Shown: positions 1,820 to 29,566 of the stretch, piece by piece
Layout of the letters: each line of letters begins with the position of its first letter
Position numbering within the stretch: the first letter of the stretch is position 1
Assembly (NCBI GenBank): GCA_013178155.1
Contig: JABLXH010000023.1
Span: 1 to 54,799, forward strand
Reading direction: 5' to 3'
DNA length: 54,799 bases
From: Armatimonadota bacterium
Lineage (GTDB): Bacteria > Armatimonadota > Zipacnadia > Zipacnadales > UBA11051
The notes under the pieces: generated by a model
What the model saw: only the letters and a program-made list of their open reading frames with translations
Told to the model about the DNA's origin: nothing
The model's database searches: none
Program-made: the position numbers and the translations under genes

Positions 1820-2935
1820 ATGGGCATTCGAGCAGCAATCGTGGGTGTCGGTCCAGTCGGCGACAGGATCTACACCTGTCTGAAAGAGCGGGAGTTTCCA
1901 CTGGCGGACAAACCGGTGGTGATGGCGACCAAAGCACGCACTGAGGTGCTGGGTGGCGAGGAGGTGGAAGTGAAGCAGGTTGCCGCCGAGCACTTCGCTG
2001 GCGTGGACGTGGTCTTCTTTGCGGGGCGCGAAGGGGCCAAGGGGGCCAGCGTTCAATGGGGGCCGGTGGCGCTGGAGGCGGGCGCCTGGTGCATTGACAA
2101 CGGCTCGGACTACCGGCTTCACCCTGACATCCCCCTGGTGGTGCCTGAGGTCAACATGCACCACGTGACCCCTGACACGCGGTTCATCGCCAGCCCGAAC
2201 TGCTCGACGATCCAGATGGTGGTCGCGCTGGCGCCCCTCCACCGCGTGGCCCGCATCCGGCGCATCGTTGTCACCACCTACCAGTCGGTCTCGGGCTGGG
2301 GGGCAGCCGCACAGGACGAACTGAGGGCGCAGTTGCCGTGCGTGATAGAGGGCAGGGAGGTGGTATGTGACCGCAGCATCTTCCCCCGACCCATCGCTCT
2401 CGACTGCCTGCCGCACATTGATGCCTTCCTGGACAATGGTTACACCAAGGAAGAGATGAAGATGCTGCACGAGACCCGCAAGATCTTTGGCGACCCGGAC
2501 ATTGCGGTATCGCCGACGGCGGTGCGGGTGCCAGTGGAGATCGGGCACGCCGAGGCCATCAACGTGGAGTTCGAAGGCCCCATGGATGCCGGGAAGGCCC
2601 TGGAGATTCTCAGTGATCCGTCGCAGGCCGAGGGTGTGGTGGTGATCGATGGCCCGACCCAGGATCCCGACCGACTGGCTGAACTGGCCAAGAAGGAGCG
2701 CAAGCGAAAGCCCTGGGCTAACCACTGGGAGGTCACGGAGCGTCAGTACCCGACGCAGGCCGACATTCTTAAGGACCCCTGGAAGGACATGACGCTTGTC
2801 GGACGGATACGCGACGACCACTCACGACCCAACTGCCTGAATATGTGGGTCGTGGCCGACAACCTGCGCAAGGGCGCAGCTACCAATGTTGTGCAGATCG
2901 CGGAGAAGATGATCCAGCGGGGCCTGCTGGGGTAG
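1820..2935 (+). CDS. asd: aspartate-semialdehyde dehydrogenase
   Basis: Makes aspartate semialdehyde from aspartyl phosphate with NADPH, the branch point for lysine/diaminopimelate, threonine and methionine. The protein has 371 residues. The catalytic cysteine is in SPNCSTIQ and the conserved histidine in VEIGHAEA. A clear ribosome-binding sequence (GGAGA) precedes ATG 1820. The nucleotide loop reads GVGPVG where most family members have GATGAVG or a close relative, which is atypical. The C-terminal end is standard (NLRKGAATNVVQIAE). It follows dapB in the same orientation, and a strong terminator lies 24 bases after its stop, so dapB-asd looks like a two-gene operon. Confidence 0.93.
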   Translation: MGIRAAIVGVGPVGDRIYTCLKEREFPLADKPVVMATKARTEVLGGEEVEVKQVAAEHFAGVDVVFFAGREGAKGASVQWGPVALEAGAWCIDNGSDYRLHPDIPLVVPEVNMHHVTPDTRFIASPNCSTIQMVVALAPLHRVARIRRIVVTTYQSVSGWGAAAQDELRAQLPCVIEGREVVCDRSIFPRPIALDCLPHIDAFLDNGYTKEEMKMLHETRKIFGDPDIAVSPTAVRVPVEIGHAEAINVEFEGPMDAGKALEILSDPSQAEGVVVIDGPTQDPDRLAELAKKERKRKPWANHWEVTERQYPTQADILKDPWKDMTLVGRIRDDHSRPNCLNMWVVADNLRKGAATNVVQIAEKMIQRGLLG

Positions 2936-2959
2936 GTCAGTCGCTCTCTGCGACCATCT

Positions 2960-2984
2960 GAGCCGGCGCTACCGCCGGCTCTTT
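2960..2984 (+). terminator. intrinsic terminator after asd
   Basis: Perfect 9-bp stem (GAGCCGGCG with CGCCGGCTC), a four-base loop CTAC, then TTT. It closes the dapB-asd unit before the sugar transporter genes. Confidence 0.75.
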
Positions 2985-3053
2985 GCTTGGGCAGGGATGG
3001 GGGGAGGCGGTGTGGAACGGACACCGCGGGGGATGAGCGGGAGACGCCCAACC

Positions 3054-4610
3054 ATGTCCATGCGAGAGAGCTCCGACACCCCGACACCACGGCGTCCGCT
3101 GCTATCCATGCGTGGCATCCGCAAGGCCTTCGGCGGGACCACGGCCCTGCGGGGTGTGGACCTGGAGATAGCCGAAGGCGAGATCCATGGTCTGGTGGGA
3201 GAGAACGGCGCCGGCAAGTCCACGCTGATGCGCATCCTCAGTGGGGCCCTGGCGCCTGACGCGGGCAGCATCGCCTGGCGGGGGGAAGAGGTCCGTCTGC
3301 CCACTCCACAGGCGGCTCTGGCGGCCGGGATCGCCATGATCCACCAGGAGCTCAGCCTCATCCCCAGTGTCTCGGTAGCCGGCAATATCTTCCTGGGTCA
3401 CGAGCCCCGGGGACGCTTCGGGGTGGTCAAGGTCGGCCTCATGCGCCGCCGGGCTGCGGACCTGATGGCCAGCCTCAGCACAGAGGTGGACGTCACTCGC
3501 CCGGTAGAGGACTACAGTCTGGGTACCCAGCAAATGGTGGAGGTAGCCAAGGCTCTGTCCCACAGCGCCAGCTTGATCGTCATGGACGAGCCTACGAGTT
3601 CGCTGGAGGAGGCCGAGACGGCGAAGCTGTTCGAAGTCATCCGTGACCTGCGCGCACGGGGAGTCACTGTCATCTACATCTCCCACAAGATGGAGGAGAT
3701 TTACGAGCTGTGCGACCGGGTCACCGTGCTGCGCGACGGCGAACGGATTGGGACAGCGGCAGTGTCAGAGCTACCCAGGGAGGAGCTCATCCAGTGGATG
3801 GTGGGGCGCCGGATAGAGCAGTTTTTCCCCAAGGCGAGAGTGAAGCCGGGGGCGGAGGTCCTGCGGGTAGAGGGGCTCACCCTGGACAGCGAACACGGCG
3901 GTGGGCGCCGGATCCTGGATGGCGTGTCACTCTCTGTGCGTGCCGGGGAGATCGTGGGGCTGGCCGGTCTACGGGGTTCCGGGGCCAGTGAGCTCATGGG
4001 AGCTCTCTTTGGCCGCTACGGTGGACGGGTACGCGGCAGAGTGCAGATTGGGGGCAAAGACACAGTTGTCACCTCCCCTGCGGCGGCCATGGCTCAGGGC
4101 CTGGCTCTGTTGACCGATGACCGCAAGGCGACGGGTCTTGTGCTCCCCATGTCCGTCCTGCACAACATGACCCTGGCCTCCCTGGATCGAGTCGCCCGGG
4201 CGGGCGTGATCCGCCGGTCGCAGGAGTTGCAGCTTGCCCAGCCCTTGGTGCGCAACCTGGCGATCCGAGCCGACTCGGTGGACGTTGAGGTCAGCTCGCT
4301 CAGTGGAGGAAACCAACAGAAGGTGGCTCTGGCGAAGTGGCTCATGGCCCAACCGCGAGTGCTCCTGCTGGATGAGCCCACCAGAGGCATAGATGTGGGC
4401 GCCAAGACCGAGATCTATCACCTCATGAGCCGCCTCGCAGCAGAGGGCAGGGGCATTCTCCTGATCACCTCCGAGCTGCCGGAACTGCTGGCCATGGCAG
4501 ACCGCATCGTGGTGCTCCACCGCGGGCGAGTGACAGCCGAGCTGTCGGGGCCGGAAGCCACCCAGGAGCGGGTGATGGCGGCTGCGGTACAGGAGGCCCG
4601 GTGTGCCTGA
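3054..4610 (+). CDS. sugar ABC transporter ATP-binding protein, CUT2 (RbsA/MglA) type
   Basis: Double-ABC ATPase that powers import of a monosaccharide by the next two gene products; it sits on the inner face of the cytoplasmic membrane. Domain 1 has Walker A GENGAGKST, a signature YSLGTQQM and Walker B LIVMDEP. Domain 2 has a degenerate Walker A (GLRGSGASE), as is normal for the second half of RbsA proteins, signature LSGGNQQK and Walker B VLLLDEPTRGIDVG. I chose ATG 3054 because CGGGAG lies 10 bases upstream; in-frame starts at 2997 and 3033 would add a proline/arginine-rich N-terminus unlike the family. It overlaps the permease gene by 8 bases. The sugar cannot be deduced. Confidence 0.93.
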   Translation: MSMRESSDTPTPRRPLLSMRGIRKAFGGTTALRGVDLEIAEGEIHGLVGENGAGKSTLMRILSGALAPDAGSIAWRGEEVRLPTPQAALAAGIAMIHQELSLIPSVSVAGNIFLGHEPRGRFGVVKVGLMRRRAADLMASLSTEVDVTRPVEDYSLGTQQMVEVAKALSHSASLIVMDEPTSSLEEAETAKLFEVIRDLRARGVTVIYISHKMEEIYELCDRVTVLRDGERIGTAAVSELPREELIQWMVGRRIEQFFPKARVKPGAEVLRVEGLTLDSEHGGGRRILDGVSLSVRAGEIVGLAGLRGSGASELMGALFGRYGGRVRGRVQIGGKDTVVTSPAAAMAQGLALLTDDRKATGLVLPMSVLHNMTLASLDRVARAGVIRRSQELQLAQPLVRNLAIRADSVDVEVSSLSGGNQQKVALAKWLMAQPRVLLLDEPTRGIDVGAKTEIYHLMSRLAAEGRGILLITSELPELLAMADRIVVLHRGRVTAELSGPEATQERVMAAAVQEARCA

Positions 4611-6748: not shown

Positions 6749-9685
6749 ATGAGGCTCTACCTGTGCCTGCTGACGATGGTCTGCACGGTCGCTGTGGCGG
6801 AGGTTGTGGACAACGCATCTCTGCGCCAGCAGTCCGTGTTCGTCGAGGGCGAGAGCTTCTCGCCAACCAATGGCGACTGGCAAGCAGGTGTGGGCTGGTC
6901 GGATGATGTCTACACACCCACCTCCGGCGATGCGGTCCTGGGCAACGGAGGCGGTGGGACAGGCACTGCCAGTCGCGACGTCGTCATTCCGGCTGACGGC
7001 AGGTACCATGTCTGGGTCCGCTACCTGAGTATCGCGAGCTACCCGGGCAGTTTCGGGCTGAGCATCACGCAGAACGGTCAGACGGTGTTTTCAGGCGAGT
7101 ACCGTGCAAACCCGACCAACAGCGGCTGGGATGAGACATGGGAGAAGCTGCTGGCCGATCTGGTGGCGGGTCCGGCGACACTGACGCTGTCCATCATCAA
7201 GCCCGGCGTCAGGCAGCGTGTGGACTGTGTGCTTCTGACCTCAGTGCTGGACTATGAACCCGACTACCACGACTTCGCGCCACAGGTGTTCCTGCGTTTC
7301 CGGCTGGACGAACCCCCACTGGCGGCCAAGGCCAACTGCACCGTCTACACCCCACGCGGGCCGCGCTACTACCAGTTCCCGGGCTGGCTGACCGCCCAGG
7401 GGCTGGGACCAGACGGTGACGCCATCGCGCCGGGGCAGTGGTCGCCCTGGGTGGAGCTAACCCCGTTTCTGGACACCGGCAAGCGCATCGCGACCGTGAA
7501 GTTCGCCTTCCAGTCAGAGGGTAAGCCACTACCGCAGGTGCGCGGCCAGTATCAGGTCACTACGCGGCCCGACCCGGCCGGAGCCGTCGAGCTTGCGGAG
7601 GATGTGGATGGCGAGATCAGCGCCCTTACCATCCCCGGCGATCTGGGCCAGTTCCCCGAGCCTCTGCGTCTGGCGTCGCAGCTCTCTCGTGAACACTATG
7701 AGCGTGCTCGCGCTCTCGGCTTTCCGGCGCTGCCGACCACCCTCGTGCCACTGGAAACCTACGTGACCGGGTGGGAGGACGCCTACCGTTCGGAGCGGAT
7801 ACTCGCGTGGGAGATGGGCGGCGCGGCCGCCATCGGCCTCAACTCCTTCAACCACGTCTACGGCCGGCGCCTCGAGGCGGCCAGCCAACACGGCGTGACC
7901 CGGGGATACCTTAGCGACTGGTTCCCCTATCAGCTTTGGCAGTGTCCTACAGCGCCCGGAAACGCTGAGATGACCGACAAGCATTTCCGTGAGCTTGCCG
8001 CAAAGATGCTGGCGGAGGACCCGGAGGCGCTGCGACGTCACTACCGCAACACTCTCTACGACGAGCCCGGCAGCAGCGACCTCAAACACCTGGCCGAGTG
8101 CCCGTCGTGTCTCGCTGGCTTCGGGCCTTACCTGGAACAGCAGGGCCTGGCGCCCACGAATTTCGGGCGGGAAACATGGGCTGGCCTGGCGCCGATCGCT
8201 CGCGAGGCAGCTACGGACCCCAACGGCCGCAGGCTGCATTACTGGTCCATCCAGTATCGCGATTGGACCAATGCTCAGATGGTGAAGCTGGCCAGTGATC
8301 TCTGCCGGAAGCACTACGGGGACCACATGCTGACTATGGTCAACTTCACCAACGGGCCCACCTCAGGCTGGATCGGGTCTCTGGCCTGGGGTCCCGACTG
8401 GTTCCTCTATGGTCGTCTGGGTGCGGTGACGCTGATGTGGTCCGAGGACTGGACCAGTCTCGGGCCGGAGGTCAGTGGCGTGACGACCGACCTGCTACGC
8501 GCGGCAGCGAGGCCCCGTGACCTGCCGGTAGGCCAGTACATCATCGCCAACCACTTGCGGACCATGCCCATGCGCGCCTGGTCCGCGCTCATGCATGGCA
8601 CGAAGATACTGCACTTCTACTGCTGGGGACCTTACTACTCCTTCGCCGACGGGATGATCTCGGACAATCCCGAAACGCAGAAGGTCATCGGCGGCATCAC
8701 TCGGGAGATCGCCAAGGTGGACGAGTACCTCCATCCGGCACGAGTCCAGCCCGCCAAGGTGGCCCTTCTTTGGGGCAAGAGCCACGAGATCTGGCAGGAT
8801 GACGCCGCCGTGGGGACGGAGCGGCGGATGCTCTACCTCGCCCTGCAGCACGACCATGTGCCGGTGGACTTTGTCTGTGAGGATGACATTGCCAGCGGGC
8901 TCCTCAGAGACTACCGGGTGCTGTACGTGGCGGAGAGCAACCTGGCCCGGGCCGCCGCGGCCAGGATCAGCGATTGGGTGCGCCAGGGCGGGGTACTGCA
9001 CCTGTCGGCAGGGGCAGCCCTGGCGGATGAGTACAACGAACCCCTGGCTGACATTAACGCTTTGGCCGGCGTGGAGGTCAGTGAAGTAGAGAAGCCGGCG
9101 GGAGACTATCGCGAGCATTACGGCATACCGGCTCAGAGCGCACGGGGCGAAGTCCAGTTGCGCGCCAGCGACCTTTGGCCGGCTGCGCACTTCCCGGTCA
9201 TCGGCTACACCGAGAGGCTGACCGCGCGCGAGGCCCAGGTGTTGGCCAGCGATGCCCGGGGGGCACCCCTGGTCAGCCTGAACAAGGTGGGGAAGGGGGC
9301 GGTGCTGCGCTTTGCCTTCATGCCGGGCCTGGGCTATGTCAAGAGCGCCAGGATCGTCCCGACCGACACCATCACCGAGTACGACAGCAGCCAGCGGGCG
9401 GTGCTGCTGACTGCAGTCCGGCTGGCGCAGGTGCAATCGCCGCTCACCGTGTCCGAACCGATGGTCGAGGCCCAACTGCTTCATGGACCCAGGGCCGACG
9501 TGGTGATGCTGGCGAACTGGGGCTATGAGCGGCTCCCGGCTGTAAGGGTGGTGGTTCGGAGTTCTGGCGCGGTCAGCCGGGTCACCTCGTCCTCCGGTGC
9601 AGCCGTCAGGACAAGCTGGACGGGACGCGACCTCACCGCTGTTGTGCCAATAGACCAGGTTGAGGCCCTCATCCTGCGACGGTGA
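6749..9685 (+). CDS. exported glycoside-hydrolase-like protein, about 978 residues
   Basis: A signal peptide (MRLYLCLLTMVCTVAVAE) is followed by a beta-rich domain resembling a carbohydrate-binding module (about residues 25-170, with FVEGESF and ADGRYHVWVRYL). A large central region looks like a TIM barrel of clan GH-A type (acidic YDEPGSSD, then IQYRDWTNAQMV and LMWSEDW). A C-terminal region resembles the glutamine-amidotransferase-like domain of GH42 beta-galactosidases (KVALLWGKSHEIW, WVRQGGVLHLSAGAAL). I could not assign catalytic residues or a GH family with confidence. ATG 6749 is preferred over the overlapping GTG 6746 because AGGAGAG is correctly spaced from it. It lies 57 bases behind the binding-protein gene, so it probably supplies that importer. 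Confidence 0.7.
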   Translation: MRLYLCLLTMVCTVAVAEVVDNASLRQQSVFVEGESFSPTNGDWQAGVGWSDDVYTPTSGDAVLGNGGGGTGTASRDVVIPADGRYHVWVRYLSIASYPGSFGLSITQNGQTVFSGEYRANPTNSGWDETWEKLLADLVAGPATLTLSIIKPGVRQRVDCVLLTSVLDYEPDYHDFAPQVFLRFRLDEPPLAAKANCTVYTPRGPRYYQFPGWLTAQGLGPDGDAIAPGQWSPWVELTPFLDTGKRIATVKFAFQSEGKPLPQVRGQYQVTTRPDPAGAVELAEDVDGEISALTIPGDLGQFPEPLRLASQLSREHYERARALGFPALPTTLVPLETYVTGWEDAYRSERILAWEMGGAAAIGLNSFNHVYGRRLEAASQHGVTRGYLSDWFPYQLWQCPTAPGNAEMTDKHFRELAAKMLAEDPEALRRHYRNTLYDEPGSSDLKHLAECPSCLAGFGPYLEQQGLAPTNFGRETWAGLAPIAREAATDPNGRRLHYWSIQYRDWTNAQMVKLASDLCRKHYGDHMLTMVNFTNGPTSGWIGSLAWGPDWFLYGRLGAVTLMWSEDWTSLGPEVSGVTTDLLRAAARPRDLPVGQYIIANHLRTMPMRAWSALMHGTKILHFYCWGPYYSFADGMISDNPETQKVIGGITREIAKVDEYLHPARVQPAKVALLWGKSHEIWQDDAAVGTERRMLYLALQHDHVPVDFVCEDDIASGLLRDYRVLYVAESNLARAAAARISDWVRQGGVLHLSAGAALADEYNEPLADINALAGVEVSEVEKPAGDYREHYGIPAQSARGEVQLRASDLWPAAHFPVIGYTERLTAREAQVLASDARGAPLVSLNKVGKGAVLRFAFMPGLGYVKSARIVPTDTITEYDSSQRAVLLTAVRLAQVQSPLTVSEPMVEAQLLHGPRADVVMLANWGYERLPAVRVVVRSSGAVSRVTSSSGAAVRTSWTGRDLTAVVPIDQVEALILRR

Positions 9686-26007: not shown

Positions 26008-26577
26008 CTAGTCGTGCGGTTCCACCGCGACCTTCACCTTTGCCGGGCGGATGACCCGACCGTTGAGGGTGTAGCCCGGCAGCACCTCCTCGACGATGGT
26101 CCCCTCGCTGACCGAGCCGTCTACGACTCGCTCTACCGCCTCATGGAAGGCAGGGTCAAACATAGCTCCCCGGGCGGGGATGGGCGCCACACCAAAACGG
26201 GTCAGTACATCGTAGAGCTGGTCACGGACCATGCAGATGCCTCGGTGCAGGCTCTGGGCCGCCTCGCCCTCCACCGTACAGCCCGTCGCGCGATCGAAGT
26301 TATCCAGCACCGGAAGTAGCTCCGCAATGAGCTGCTCGTTGGCGTACTGGAGCTGCTGGGCGCGCTCCTCAGCCGAGCGGCGCCGGAAGTTCTGCAGGTC
26401 GGCCACGGCCCGCAAGTAGTCCTCGTGTTTGGCGACGAGTTGCTGCTCCAGTTCCAGCAGACGCCGCTCAGTGGCGTTGTCGACCTCCTCTTCGATTGCC
26501 TCGGGCTGTTCGGAACTATCAGTGGTCTCTGTATCGGCGGTGTCCGCCGTCTCTAGGTCATCCTTTGGCTTATCCAT
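26008..26577 (-). CDS. grpE: GrpE nucleotide exchange factor
   Basis: Cochaperone that releases ADP from DnaK. 189 residues from ATG 26577, which has GGAG eight bases upstream; a GTG at 26604 overlapping the chaperonin stop (GTGA) is the alternative and would add nine residues. An acidic disordered start is followed by a long coiled-coil helix (about residues 35-85, with DYLRAVADLQNFRRRS) and the C-terminal beta wing ending GYTLNGRVIRPAKVKV. DnaK and DnaJ are not encoded next to it: the operon is hrcA, chaperonin, grpE and stops here. Confidence 0.94.
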   Translation of the reverse strand: MDKPKDDLETADTADTETTDSSEQPEAIEEEVDNATERRLLELEQQLVAKHEDYLRAVADLQNFRRRSAEERAQQLQYANEQLIAELLPVLDNFDRATGCTVEGEAAQSLHRGICMVRDQLYDVLTRFGVAPIPARGAMFDPAFHEAVERVVDGSVSEGTIVEEVLPGYTLNGRVIRPAKVKVAVEPHD

Positions 26578-26600
26578 GGTGTCGTCTCCAGGCTTGCTGA

Positions 26601-28184
26601 TCACAGGTCATGCCCCGCTTCTGTCTCGGGCTGCACCTGCTCGTCTTTCTTGCGGATAATCGTGTTAATGCGCAGAATCGCGCAAGCAATCTCACCGGCC
26701 GCGTGGAGTGCATGAAGCTTCACCGGAGCGGCATCAACCACCCCCAGCGCGAACATATCAGCGACCTGGCCGGTGTCGCAGTCCACGGCCCAACTGCCTC
26801 CGACGCCGCTGCGGGCGATGACCTCTTCGACCTTCTCCAGCGGGTTCAGCCCGGCATTGGCGACGATCTGGGCCAGGGGGCGCTTCAGCGCTTCCAGGAC
26901 GCAGTCCACTCCATAGGCTGTCATCCCCGCAGCCGCGGCCCGTTGGGCGGCAAGGGAATGAAAGGCGGCGATCTCGGCCGCCCCGCCACCGGGAAGCAGG
27001 CCGCCTTGCAGAGCTGCCTGGACGGCGCTGGCCGCGTCCTCCGCGATCCGTCGGCGTTCATCGCGGACGGCTCGGGTCGCGGCCCCGACGATCATCGTGG
27101 CCGTCGTCTCGCCCTTGCCGCCAGTGACTCTCAGCAGCCCCAGACGTTCATCCTCCTCCACACGTTCAGCACCGCCAAGGCTTCGTTCCAGCTCTGCCGG
27201 AGGGCGGCGCAAGGCCGTGCGTTTGAGCAGCCGGGCACCCGTGTGGCGTGCCACTTCCGCGAGGTCTCGTCGCGAGACCCGCCGGACGGCGAGAATGTCG
27301 TGGTCCAGCAGCAACTCCTCCGCATGCTCGGAGATGGCCCGGGCGGCCATGATACAGTTGACCCCCAGGTAGTTGAGCTTCTTCAGACACTCCTGAAACT
27401 CGCTTTGGAGTTGCAGGTACCGCTGAAAGCCGGCCTCGGTCCCCAATGCCTCCTGATCAACGCTCTCCGGCTCCAAAGCATCATCCAGCAGCAGGATGCG
27501 GGCTGGAGCGACGACCAGGGGCATCTGCTGGTTGAGGCGCTGTTTCTCCAGGATGACGCCGGCCACCACCTCGTTCTCTGCCCCCTCCCGGGCCACGATG
27601 CGCTTTCCCAGGCGGAAGGCCGGATCGTCCGTGAGCTTGGCCAGCGGGATGCGTTTGGCGGCCTCCAACGCCAGGTAGGCCAGGTCCTCCTGGTGGCGCC
27701 CCGCCACCAACGCGGCCCTTGCCAGCAAGGGGTCGTCCAGGGCGACACCACGAGCGGCCGTTTCCAGGGCCTCGAGCGCCCGCTCAACACCGAACTCGAT
27801 ACCCTCAATGACCTTTGTCACCGGAACACCGCGCTGGACCTGTTTCACGCCTTCTGCTACCAGGGCCGCCGCCAGGATGGTCGCCGTGGTGGTTCCGTCG
27901 CCTACCTGCTCCGCCTGCGCCCGGGCCGTGTTGATAAGCAGTTGCGCCGCCGGGTGGTTGACGTCTATCTTCTCCAGGATGGTGGAACCATCGTTGGTGA
28001 TCGTGACGTCGCCAAACCGGTCCACCAGCATGGAGTTGAGGCCCTTGGGGCCCAGTGTGCCCTCGACGGCCGAGGCGATGGCGGTGATGGCAGCGGCATT
28101 GGCGTTCAGGGCCGCTAAGCGCTCGTCCACGTCGGTGGCGCTAACGCGCTTGACCTGGCTGTCTCCGGGTCCCGGTGATGGCAC
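26601..28184 (-). CDS. group III (archaeal-type, thermosome-like) chaperonin in a bacterial hrcA operon
   Basis: 527 residues from GTG 28184, which has AAGGAG seven bases upstream; TTG 28211 would lengthen it. It is a Cpn60 ATPase of the thermosome/CCT side of the family, not GroEL: GTLGPKG (residues 42-48), NDGSTIL (64-70) and GDGTTTAT (95-102) are the nucleotide-binding motifs, and the apical domain follows the group II pattern. Group II and III chaperonins use a built-in lid instead of GroES, and no groES is nearby. Archaeal-like chaperonins in the dnaK operon are known from some Firmicutes such as Carboxydothermus; the neighbourhood here is similar. Transcribed between hrcA (116-base gap) and grpE (overlap or 23-base gap). 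Confidence 0.9.
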   Translation of the reverse strand: MPSPGPGDSQVKRVSATDVDERLAALNANAAAITAIASAVEGTLGPKGLNSMLVDRFGDVTITNDGSTILEKIDVNHPAAQLLINTARAQAEQVGDGTTTATILAAALVAEGVKQVQRGVPVTKVIEGIEFGVERALEALETAARGVALDDPLLARAALVAGRHQEDLAYLALEAAKRIPLAKLTDDPAFRLGKRIVAREGAENEVVAGVILEKQRLNQQMPLVVAPARILLLDDALEPESVDQEALGTEAGFQRYLQLQSEFQECLKKLNYLGVNCIMAARAISEHAEELLLDHDILAVRRVSRRDLAEVARHTGARLLKRTALRRPPAELERSLGGAERVEEDERLGLLRVTGGKGETTATMIVGAATRAVRDERRRIAEDAASAVQAALQGGLLPGGGAAEIAAFHSLAAQRAAAAGMTAYGVDCVLEALKRPLAQIVANAGLNPLEKVEEVIARSGVGGSWAVDCDTGQVADMFALGVVDAAPVKLHALHAAGEIACAILRINTIIRKKDEQVQPETEAGHDL

Positions 28185-28300
28185 TGTTGGTCTCCTTCTG
28201 GGCGAGGGCAAGGCAGACGGGGGATACTGGCGGTGGCCTGCACCTCACCGGGGCCGTTCCACCAGCGTTGTCGTTCCCCAATGTGCGGTCTGCAGGCGCT

Positions 28301-29353
28301 CTAATGATCTGAGGTCTGGGTCTGCGCGAAGGTCTCGGTTAGCTGTCGGGCGGTGTACTCCACAATATCCATGATCTGGGCGTAGTCCATCCGGGTCGGC
28401 CCCAACACACCAACAGCACCGCGCCCACCGTGCACCGAGTAGGCGCTGGCGACCAGACTGCATCCACGCATACCCGGATGCCGGTGCTCTGCGCCGATGG
28501 TCACCACCACGTCGGTGGTCTCGGTGGCGTCGTGCATCACCTGGCGTAGCGCCGCGTCCTCGTCCAGCGTCTGCATCAATTGCTTCAGGCGGCTCCGCTC
28601 CTCGAACTCGGGCTGGTCAAGGATGTAGCTGGTGCCATCAACATACACGGCGCTTTCCTCGTCCGCGGCGGCTGCCGCGCGGATCCCCGCCAACAGGTCT
28701 TCTGGCGCCTGAAGCTCCCCCAACTGCCTCTGGACGCTGCTGGCGCTGACGGCGGCCAGGGCCGACAACTCCCGGCCCACGTGCAGGCGCTGGAGGGTCG
28801 CCGACAGGGCCCTCACCGCCTCCGCTGTCAACGGGACGTCACTGCGCAGCAGGTGGCTGTGTTCCTGGTTGTCCGACGTCTTGTAGGAGAGCATCACGGT
28901 GCTGGCACTCACCGGCTGCAGGTTCAGCGCTATCACCTGGACGTTGGTGGCTGGGGGCTCGGTAACCACCGCCGGATGAGCGGTAGCGCGGGCCAGAAGA
29001 CGCGATGTGGCCCGCAGCAGCTCGTGGGGCTGGGAGCCGAGACGACGGTATTCAGCCTGCAACCAGGGCAAGGCGCGCGTTGCGGGACGCCTCTGACTGG
29101 CGAGGCAGTTGACGTACAGTCGGTAAGCCACGTCACAGGGGATACGCCCGGCCGAGGTATGGGGCTGCTGCAGGTACCCGGCTTGTTCCAGTTCCGCCAT
29201 CTCGTTGCGAATGGTGGCCGTACTGGCCATTACGCCATACCGCTCCTGCACGACGCGTGACCCCACGGGTTCGCGGGTCCGTACATGCTCCTCCACCACC
29301 GCCAGGAGCACCAGCAGTTGTCTCTCAGTCAGGGGCGCACCAAACAAGGCCAC
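28301..29353 (-). CDS. hrcA: HrcA heat-inducible transcription repressor
   Basis: 350-residue repressor of class I heat-shock genes. The N-terminal winged helix reads EPVGSRVVQERYGVMASTATIRNEMAELEQAGYL, with TSAGRIP at its end, which is the family signature. The GAF-like dimerisation domain and inserted segment follow, ending GVLGPTRMDYAQIMDIVEYT. Start is GTG 29353 with GGAGG upstream. HrcA normally binds the CIRCE element and needs GroEL for activity; I find no CIRCE-like sequence upstream, and the neighbouring chaperonin is of group III, so its operator and partner may differ. First gene of the hrcA-chaperonin-grpE operon. Confidence 0.94.
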   Translation of the reverse strand: MALFGAPLTERQLLVLLAVVEEHVRTREPVGSRVVQERYGVMASTATIRNEMAELEQAGYLQQPHTSAGRIPCDVAYRLYVNCLASQRRPATRALPWLQAEYRRLGSQPHELLRATSRLLARATAHPAVVTEPPATNVQVIALNLQPVSASTVMLSYKTSDNQEHSHLLRSDVPLTAEAVRALSATLQRLHVGRELSALAAVSASSVQRQLGELQAPEDLLAGIRAAAAADEESAVYVDGTSYILDQPEFEERSRLKQLMQTLDEDAALRQVMHDATETTDVVVTIGAEHRHPGMRGCSLVASAYSVHGGRGAVGVLGPTRMDYAQIMDIVEYTARQLTETFAQTQTSDH

Positions 29354-29403: not shown

Positions 29404-29432
29404 AGGATAGCATCGGGGTTGGAAGGAGTCAA
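29404..29432 (-). promoter_or_regulatory. sigma-70 promoter of hrcA
   Basis: On the minus strand, TTGACT (29432-29427), a 17-base spacer and TATCCT (29409-29404). It drives hrcA-chaperonin-grpE and lies back to back with the purA promoter; the two -35 hexamers are 11 bases apart. Confidence 0.65.
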
Positions 29433-29478: not shown

Positions 29479-29566
29479 ACGGGAAGCACGAAGCCCGTAA
29501 CACGAATATCGGGGCTCAAGAGGCAATCCCCCTTGAGCCCTTTTTCGTGTCCAGAGGGAGGCACGA
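29479..29566 (+). promoter_or_regulatory. purA leader with terminator and alternative pairings
   Basis: An 88-base leader. Hairpin 1 pairs ACGGG (29479-29483) with CCCGT (29494-29498). A full intrinsic terminator follows: stem GGGCTCAAG (29512-29520) with CTTGAGCCC (29532-29540) and T5 (29541-29545). AGCCC in hairpin 1 could also pair with GGGCT of the terminator. CACGAA occurs at 29487, 29501 and 29562 (the last overlapping the purA start codon), and one complement TTCGTG lies at 29544-29549. The layout suits transcription attenuation; the ligand or trigger is unknown and no known riboswitch class is recognised. Confidence 0.6.

Follow-up and report, generated by a model that had tools for sequence, protein, structure and literature searches.

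The window, a contig of 54,799 nucleotides from an Armatimonadota genome (the entire contig C128), carried hrcA, a group III chaperonin gene (cpnIII) and grpE in one operon, an arrangement that is not unique to this genome and is a shortened version of a known Firmicute operon. It is very probably the Armatimonadota form of that operon, lying itself outside HrcA control, with HrcA acting on the groESL operons, GroEL serving as the feedback chaperone, and mainly vertical inheritance. The genome measured 5.5 Mb in 211 contigs, with an estimated completeness of ~95.6%.

Family scans bore out the positions and the common minus strand that the first-pass annotation had given for the three genes (Table 1). 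HrcA matched TIGR00331 over its full length (residues 9-341; 250.7 bits, cut-off 197.2) and PF01628 (E = 3.3e-45), GrpE matched PF01025 (E = 1.4e-45), and each was the only copy in the genome. The chaperonin matched PF00118 (E = 2.6e-105) and possessed the motifs GTLGPKG, TNDGSTIL and GDGTTTAT. Its translation likely starts at GTG 28184 rather than at TTG 28211, the start of the listed open reading frame; a ribosome-binding site (AGGAGA, 28196-28191) could be read a few bases 5' of that GTG. The stop codon of the chaperonin gene overlapped the first possible grpE start, a GTG, if that GTG is used.

Table 1. Coordinates of features in the window and in loci used for comparison; positions refer to the sequence named in the second column.
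Feature	Sequence	Positions	Strand	Description
hrcA	window	28301-29353	minus	heat-inducible transcription repressor, 350 aa, GTG start
group III chaperonin gene	window	26601 to about 28184	minus	~527 aa; listed open reading frame 26601-28211
grpE	window	26008-26604	minus	nucleotide exchange factor for DnaK
hrcA-chaperonin gap	window	28185-28300	minus	116 bases, contains AGGAGA
candidate sigma-70-type promoter	window	29404-29432	minus	before hrcA; TTGACT-N17-TATCCT, from consensus scan
purA leader hairpin	window	29509-29545	plus	between purA and hrcA; strong hairpin then T run
CIRCE, zinc-ribbon gene	L014 (own genome)	8515-9283		CIRCE directly before the gene
CIRCE, NIF3 gene	L278	1501-2337		NIF3 identity by Pfam
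CIRCE, NIF3 gene	L269	649-1527		NIF3 identity by Pfam
CIRCE, NIF3 gene	L268	42-1119		NIF3 identity by Pfam
decayed cpnIII	L064 (G004)	2903-4606		between hrcA and grpE

On the same contig, the operon was preceded by a divergent purA and by pnp, and followed by a convergent DUF72 gene with no dnaK-dnaJ there; the operon thus stops after grpE, as had been annotated. An assembly break behind its end was ruled out by these neighbours and by an order recurring in many genomes, and a comparison of hrcA neighbourhoods likewise found close relatives without dnaK-dnaJ beside hrcA. The hairpin of the purA leader could be an attenuator (folding z-score of the leader -2.9), and an Rfam scan of the window, this leader included, returned no match.

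Judged from its sequence, the window chaperonin is a group III chaperonin with an intact active site. In a quick tree of 69 sequences, with SH-aLRT as the only support measure, it fell into a group III clade of 49 rows (support 98), which also held further Armatimonadota proteins and ten sequences from Firmicutes. This placement confirmed the group III assignment of the first-pass annotation. GroEL formed a clade of its own (support 100) without the window protein, as did the 15 archaeal group II sequences (support 99). Within the group III clade, the window sequence paired with that of G001, a genome of the same family, and families mostly clustered. All four lid residues (L/F/Y/F) were present at the positions of L237, F243, Y246 and F253 of the Carboxydothermus hydrogenoformans chaperonin Ch-CPN, whose numbering follows PMC5635000. 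The nucleotide-sensing loop was absent, leaving a six-residue gap relative to the Thermococcus thermosome row, and an arginine (AGR motif) at the Ch-CPN R155 position stood in for it. The ATPase residues were all kept, namely GDGTT, the aspartate of NDG and the residue at the Ch-CPN D373 position.

Other identities were rejected: GroEL by its separate clade and by the presence of a built-in lid, a contaminating archaeal thermosome by the tree, and a group II chaperonin by the separate archaeal rows (99), the missing loop and the missed NCBIfam thermosome cut-offs (280 against 400 bits and 278 against 671 bits). The best matches among solved structures were 9rwq, a reconstructed ancestral chaperonin, and Ch-CPN (5x9u), with archaeal thermosomes well behind. 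The PDB entries 9rwq and 9rwp are both titled 'Ancestral Group II Chaperonin (ACII)', and the window protein scored 566 bits against the former and 273 against the latter; 9rwq may be a group III ancestor under a title held in common with 9rwp.

The statement of the first-pass annotation that dnaK, dnaJ and groES are lacking held for the operon and failed for the cell. A single dnaK was located on C124, and dnaJ followed it in the same orientation at a distance of ~1 kb. C24 carried another DnaJ-domain gene, and two groES-groEL operons were located on C153 and C173. Since dnaK, dnaJ, two groES-groEL operons, HrcA and GrpE are all encoded, the cell is short of none of the classical chaperones. 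Group III chaperonins are usually, though not by strict definition, encoded inside a dnaK operon (PMC5635000); here dnaK-dnaJ lie on another contig and grpE is retained.

Group III chaperonins were present in 41 of 291 Armatimonadota genomes (30 of 194 among the good genomes). At these 41 loci, hrcA was directly upstream of cpnIII in 24 and grpE directly downstream in ~32, several of the remaining loci ending at contig borders; dnaK followed grpE in only two (G053 and G245). Most of the 20 chaperonin-less relatives examined had hrcA-grpE, followed in one by dnaJ. From both sets, it follows that the phylum usually has hrcA-grpE without dnaK, with the chaperonin gene as a facultative member between the two. 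Within the family of the window (f1), the same hrcA-grpE slot held an intact chaperonin in the window and in G001, a decayed one in G004 and none in G002, G003, G005 and G006.

In the decayed G004 copy, NDG had become SHG with loss of the catalytic aspartate, and its branch length in the tree was 6.3; an N-gap and an apparent frameshift toward the 3' end of this gene may be an assembly effect. In three chaperonin-less f1 genomes (G002, G003 and G006; L095, L096 and L098), a CIRCE-groES-groEL operon and hrcA-grpE shared a strand, the former lying ~2-4 kb upstream. Family f23 harbored cpnIII with neither hrcA nor grpE adjoining (L055, L232 and L238, from G058, G257 and G256, respectively). These three genomes, 97% complete, possessed the chaperonin and no HrcA. 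The first two of these loci had common upstream genes that, by impression from sequence, resembled glutamate racemase and RNase PH.

Within the phylum, cpnIII has probably been passed on mainly vertically and lost many times. Several transfers of the operon from Firmicutes to Armatimonadota, in place of inheritance and loss, would also account for the patchy presence (41 of 291 genomes), and the chaperonins of family f23 adjoined the Firmicute clade (support 94), because of which a transfer between phyla may be possible. Such repeated transfers are nevertheless unlikely, as the chaperonins mostly clustered by taxonomic family, the window protein with its own, and as family f1 has intact, decayed and absent copies in one hrcA-grpE slot. 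A quick HrcA tree also argues against them, pairing the window with G001 and placing Armatimonadota apart from Firmicutes.

Three perfect CIRCE sites were found in the genome of the window, before the groESL operons on C153 and C173 and before the zinc-ribbon gene on C145, and the reversed pattern, used as a control, gave no match in the genome. A search of the window allowing up to three mismatches yielded none. The best match before hrcA differed from CIRCE at 8 of 18 positions, the median obtained with shuffled sequences, and the best in the hrcA-chaperonin gap at 7 of 18, i.e. no site in either place; CIRCE was also looked for at dnaK of the same genome and not found. Sequences similar to the candidate sigma-70-type promoter preceded hrcA in G001, G002, G005 and G006 of the same family.

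The operon is therefore probably expressed constitutively, while HrcA retains control of groESL. Transcription would proceed from this ordinary sigma-70-type promoter, so that the repressor, the chaperonin and the sole GrpE of the cell would be produced without HrcA control, and HrcA would repress both groESL operons and the zinc-ribbon gene through CIRCE. The group III chaperonin is predicted to form an eight-fold ring that a lid within the protein itself closes, needing no GroES, and to fold proteins in ATP cycles; its clients would perhaps be handed over by DnaK, to which it would still be tied through the co-encoded GrpE.

The absence of CIRCE may also be compatible with another operator or with heat-shock control of the operon. 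Continued autoregulation by HrcA, through an operator that has diverged or is of another kind and escaped the CIRCE scan, seems rather improbable. The perfect CIRCE before hrcA in the Firmicute homologues speaks for it, as do the CIRCE-like sites, with 3-4 mismatches, retained before hrcA in two f42 genomes (L248 and L249). The three other sites of HrcA in the window genome are, however, perfect CIRCE, a sign that its DNA preference has not drifted, and no inverted repeat overlapped the hrcA promoter in the window, where the only hairpin is better assigned to the purA leader. A CIRCE-like site of the same kind also preceded hrcA in a chaperonin-less genome (L106; G047). Because the f42 pair and G047 keep such sites, the apparent loss of CIRCE autoregulation at hrcA is common in the phylum and not complete.

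In several Armatimonadota, CIRCE was found before a DUF34/NIF3 gene, mostly followed by a gene for a CT398-like coiled-coil zinc-ribbon protein (three loci in Table 1, the only ones with NIF3 identity established by Pfam, and L276, L277, L279, L280 and L281). The NIF3/zinc-ribbon unit looks like a conserved additional HrcA target.

HrcA is activated by GroEL in other bacteria, and GroEL would remain its feedback chaperone in the constitutive operon favored here. The first-pass annotation had raised a different feedback partner, an idea that found no support in the data. Were the group III chaperonin that partner, the function of HrcA would be expected to hinge on it. That the group III chaperonin has taken the place of GroEL as activator, HrcA sensing free group III chaperonin, is very unlikely, although hrcA and cpnIII adjoin in 24 of the 41 loci and co-encoded pairs of regulator and sensor are common in bacteria. 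Among relatives bearing HrcA, CIRCE (at most one mismatch) was present in 14 of 16 with the chaperonin and 34 of 40 without it, with no association (p = 1.0). It tracked HrcA instead, being present in 48 of 56 genomes with HrcA and 1 of 5 without (Fisher p = 0.004, a test that ignores relatedness). Furthermore, HrcA and CIRCE were kept in G002-G006, of the same family, in which the chaperonin is absent or decayed, and the chaperonin persisted without HrcA in the three near-complete f23 genomes (G058, G256 and G257). The CIRCE targets were mainly groESL, the usual layout of GroEL feedback, with perfect sites on both groESL operons and none at hrcA in the window genome. A related proposal, in which the group III chaperonin and not GroEL activates HrcA as an archaeal-type sensor controlling bacterial groESL operons, is likewise very improbable. 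Because CIRCE follows HrcA and not the chaperonin, and because cpnIII occurs in the HrcA-less f23 genomes, GroEL would be the economical feedback partner of HrcA.

Armatimonadota harbor a widespread version of the cpnIII operon that keeps grpE and is detached from both dnaK-dnaJ and CIRCE, and the genomic link of the group III chaperonin to Hsp70 narrows to grpE. Natural comparisons are on offer between operons with and without dnaK, between those with and without CIRCE, and among genomes of one family with intact, decayed and absent chaperonins. A literature search of titles and abstracts retrieved no description of a group III chaperonin in Armatimonadota; the present description may be the first.

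Among known systems, Ch-CPN (PDB 5x9u; PMC5635000) aligned with the window protein over its full length with no large gaps, and the two are alike in their lid residues, their catalytic aspartate and the arginine replacing the nucleotide-sensing loop. They differ in that the window chaperonin belongs to an Armatimonadota host and to an operon without dnaK-dnaJ. For the prototype group III chaperonin, thermotolerance has been reported in connection with its expression in a laboratory E. coli strain (PMC5220055). Published group III chaperonins are encoded in dnaK operons with one exception, and this location has been used as an argument for a partnership between DnaK and the chaperonin (PMC5635000). 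The occurrence of group III heat-shock operons in Firmicutes, mentioned in the first-pass annotation, was found at all ten loci examined (L115, L118, L119, L121-L126 and L132, from Paenibacillus, Aneurinibacillus, Thermoactinomyces and others), each arranged as CIRCE-hrcA-cpnIII-grpE-dnaK-dnaJ with zero mismatches in CIRCE. The window has the order hrcA-cpnIII-grpE in common with them, whereas it has neither their dnaK-dnaJ end nor the perfect CIRCE before hrcA; overall, the Armatimonadota operon lacks dnaK-dnaJ, with two exceptions, and nearly always lacks CIRCE. In Firmicutes, both chaperonin types are HrcA-regulated according to a review (PMC5904260). While the hrcA operon of the window is itself without CIRCE, its genome otherwise resembles the known HrcA/CIRCE control of groESL, with one HrcA and a perfect CIRCE before both groESL operons.
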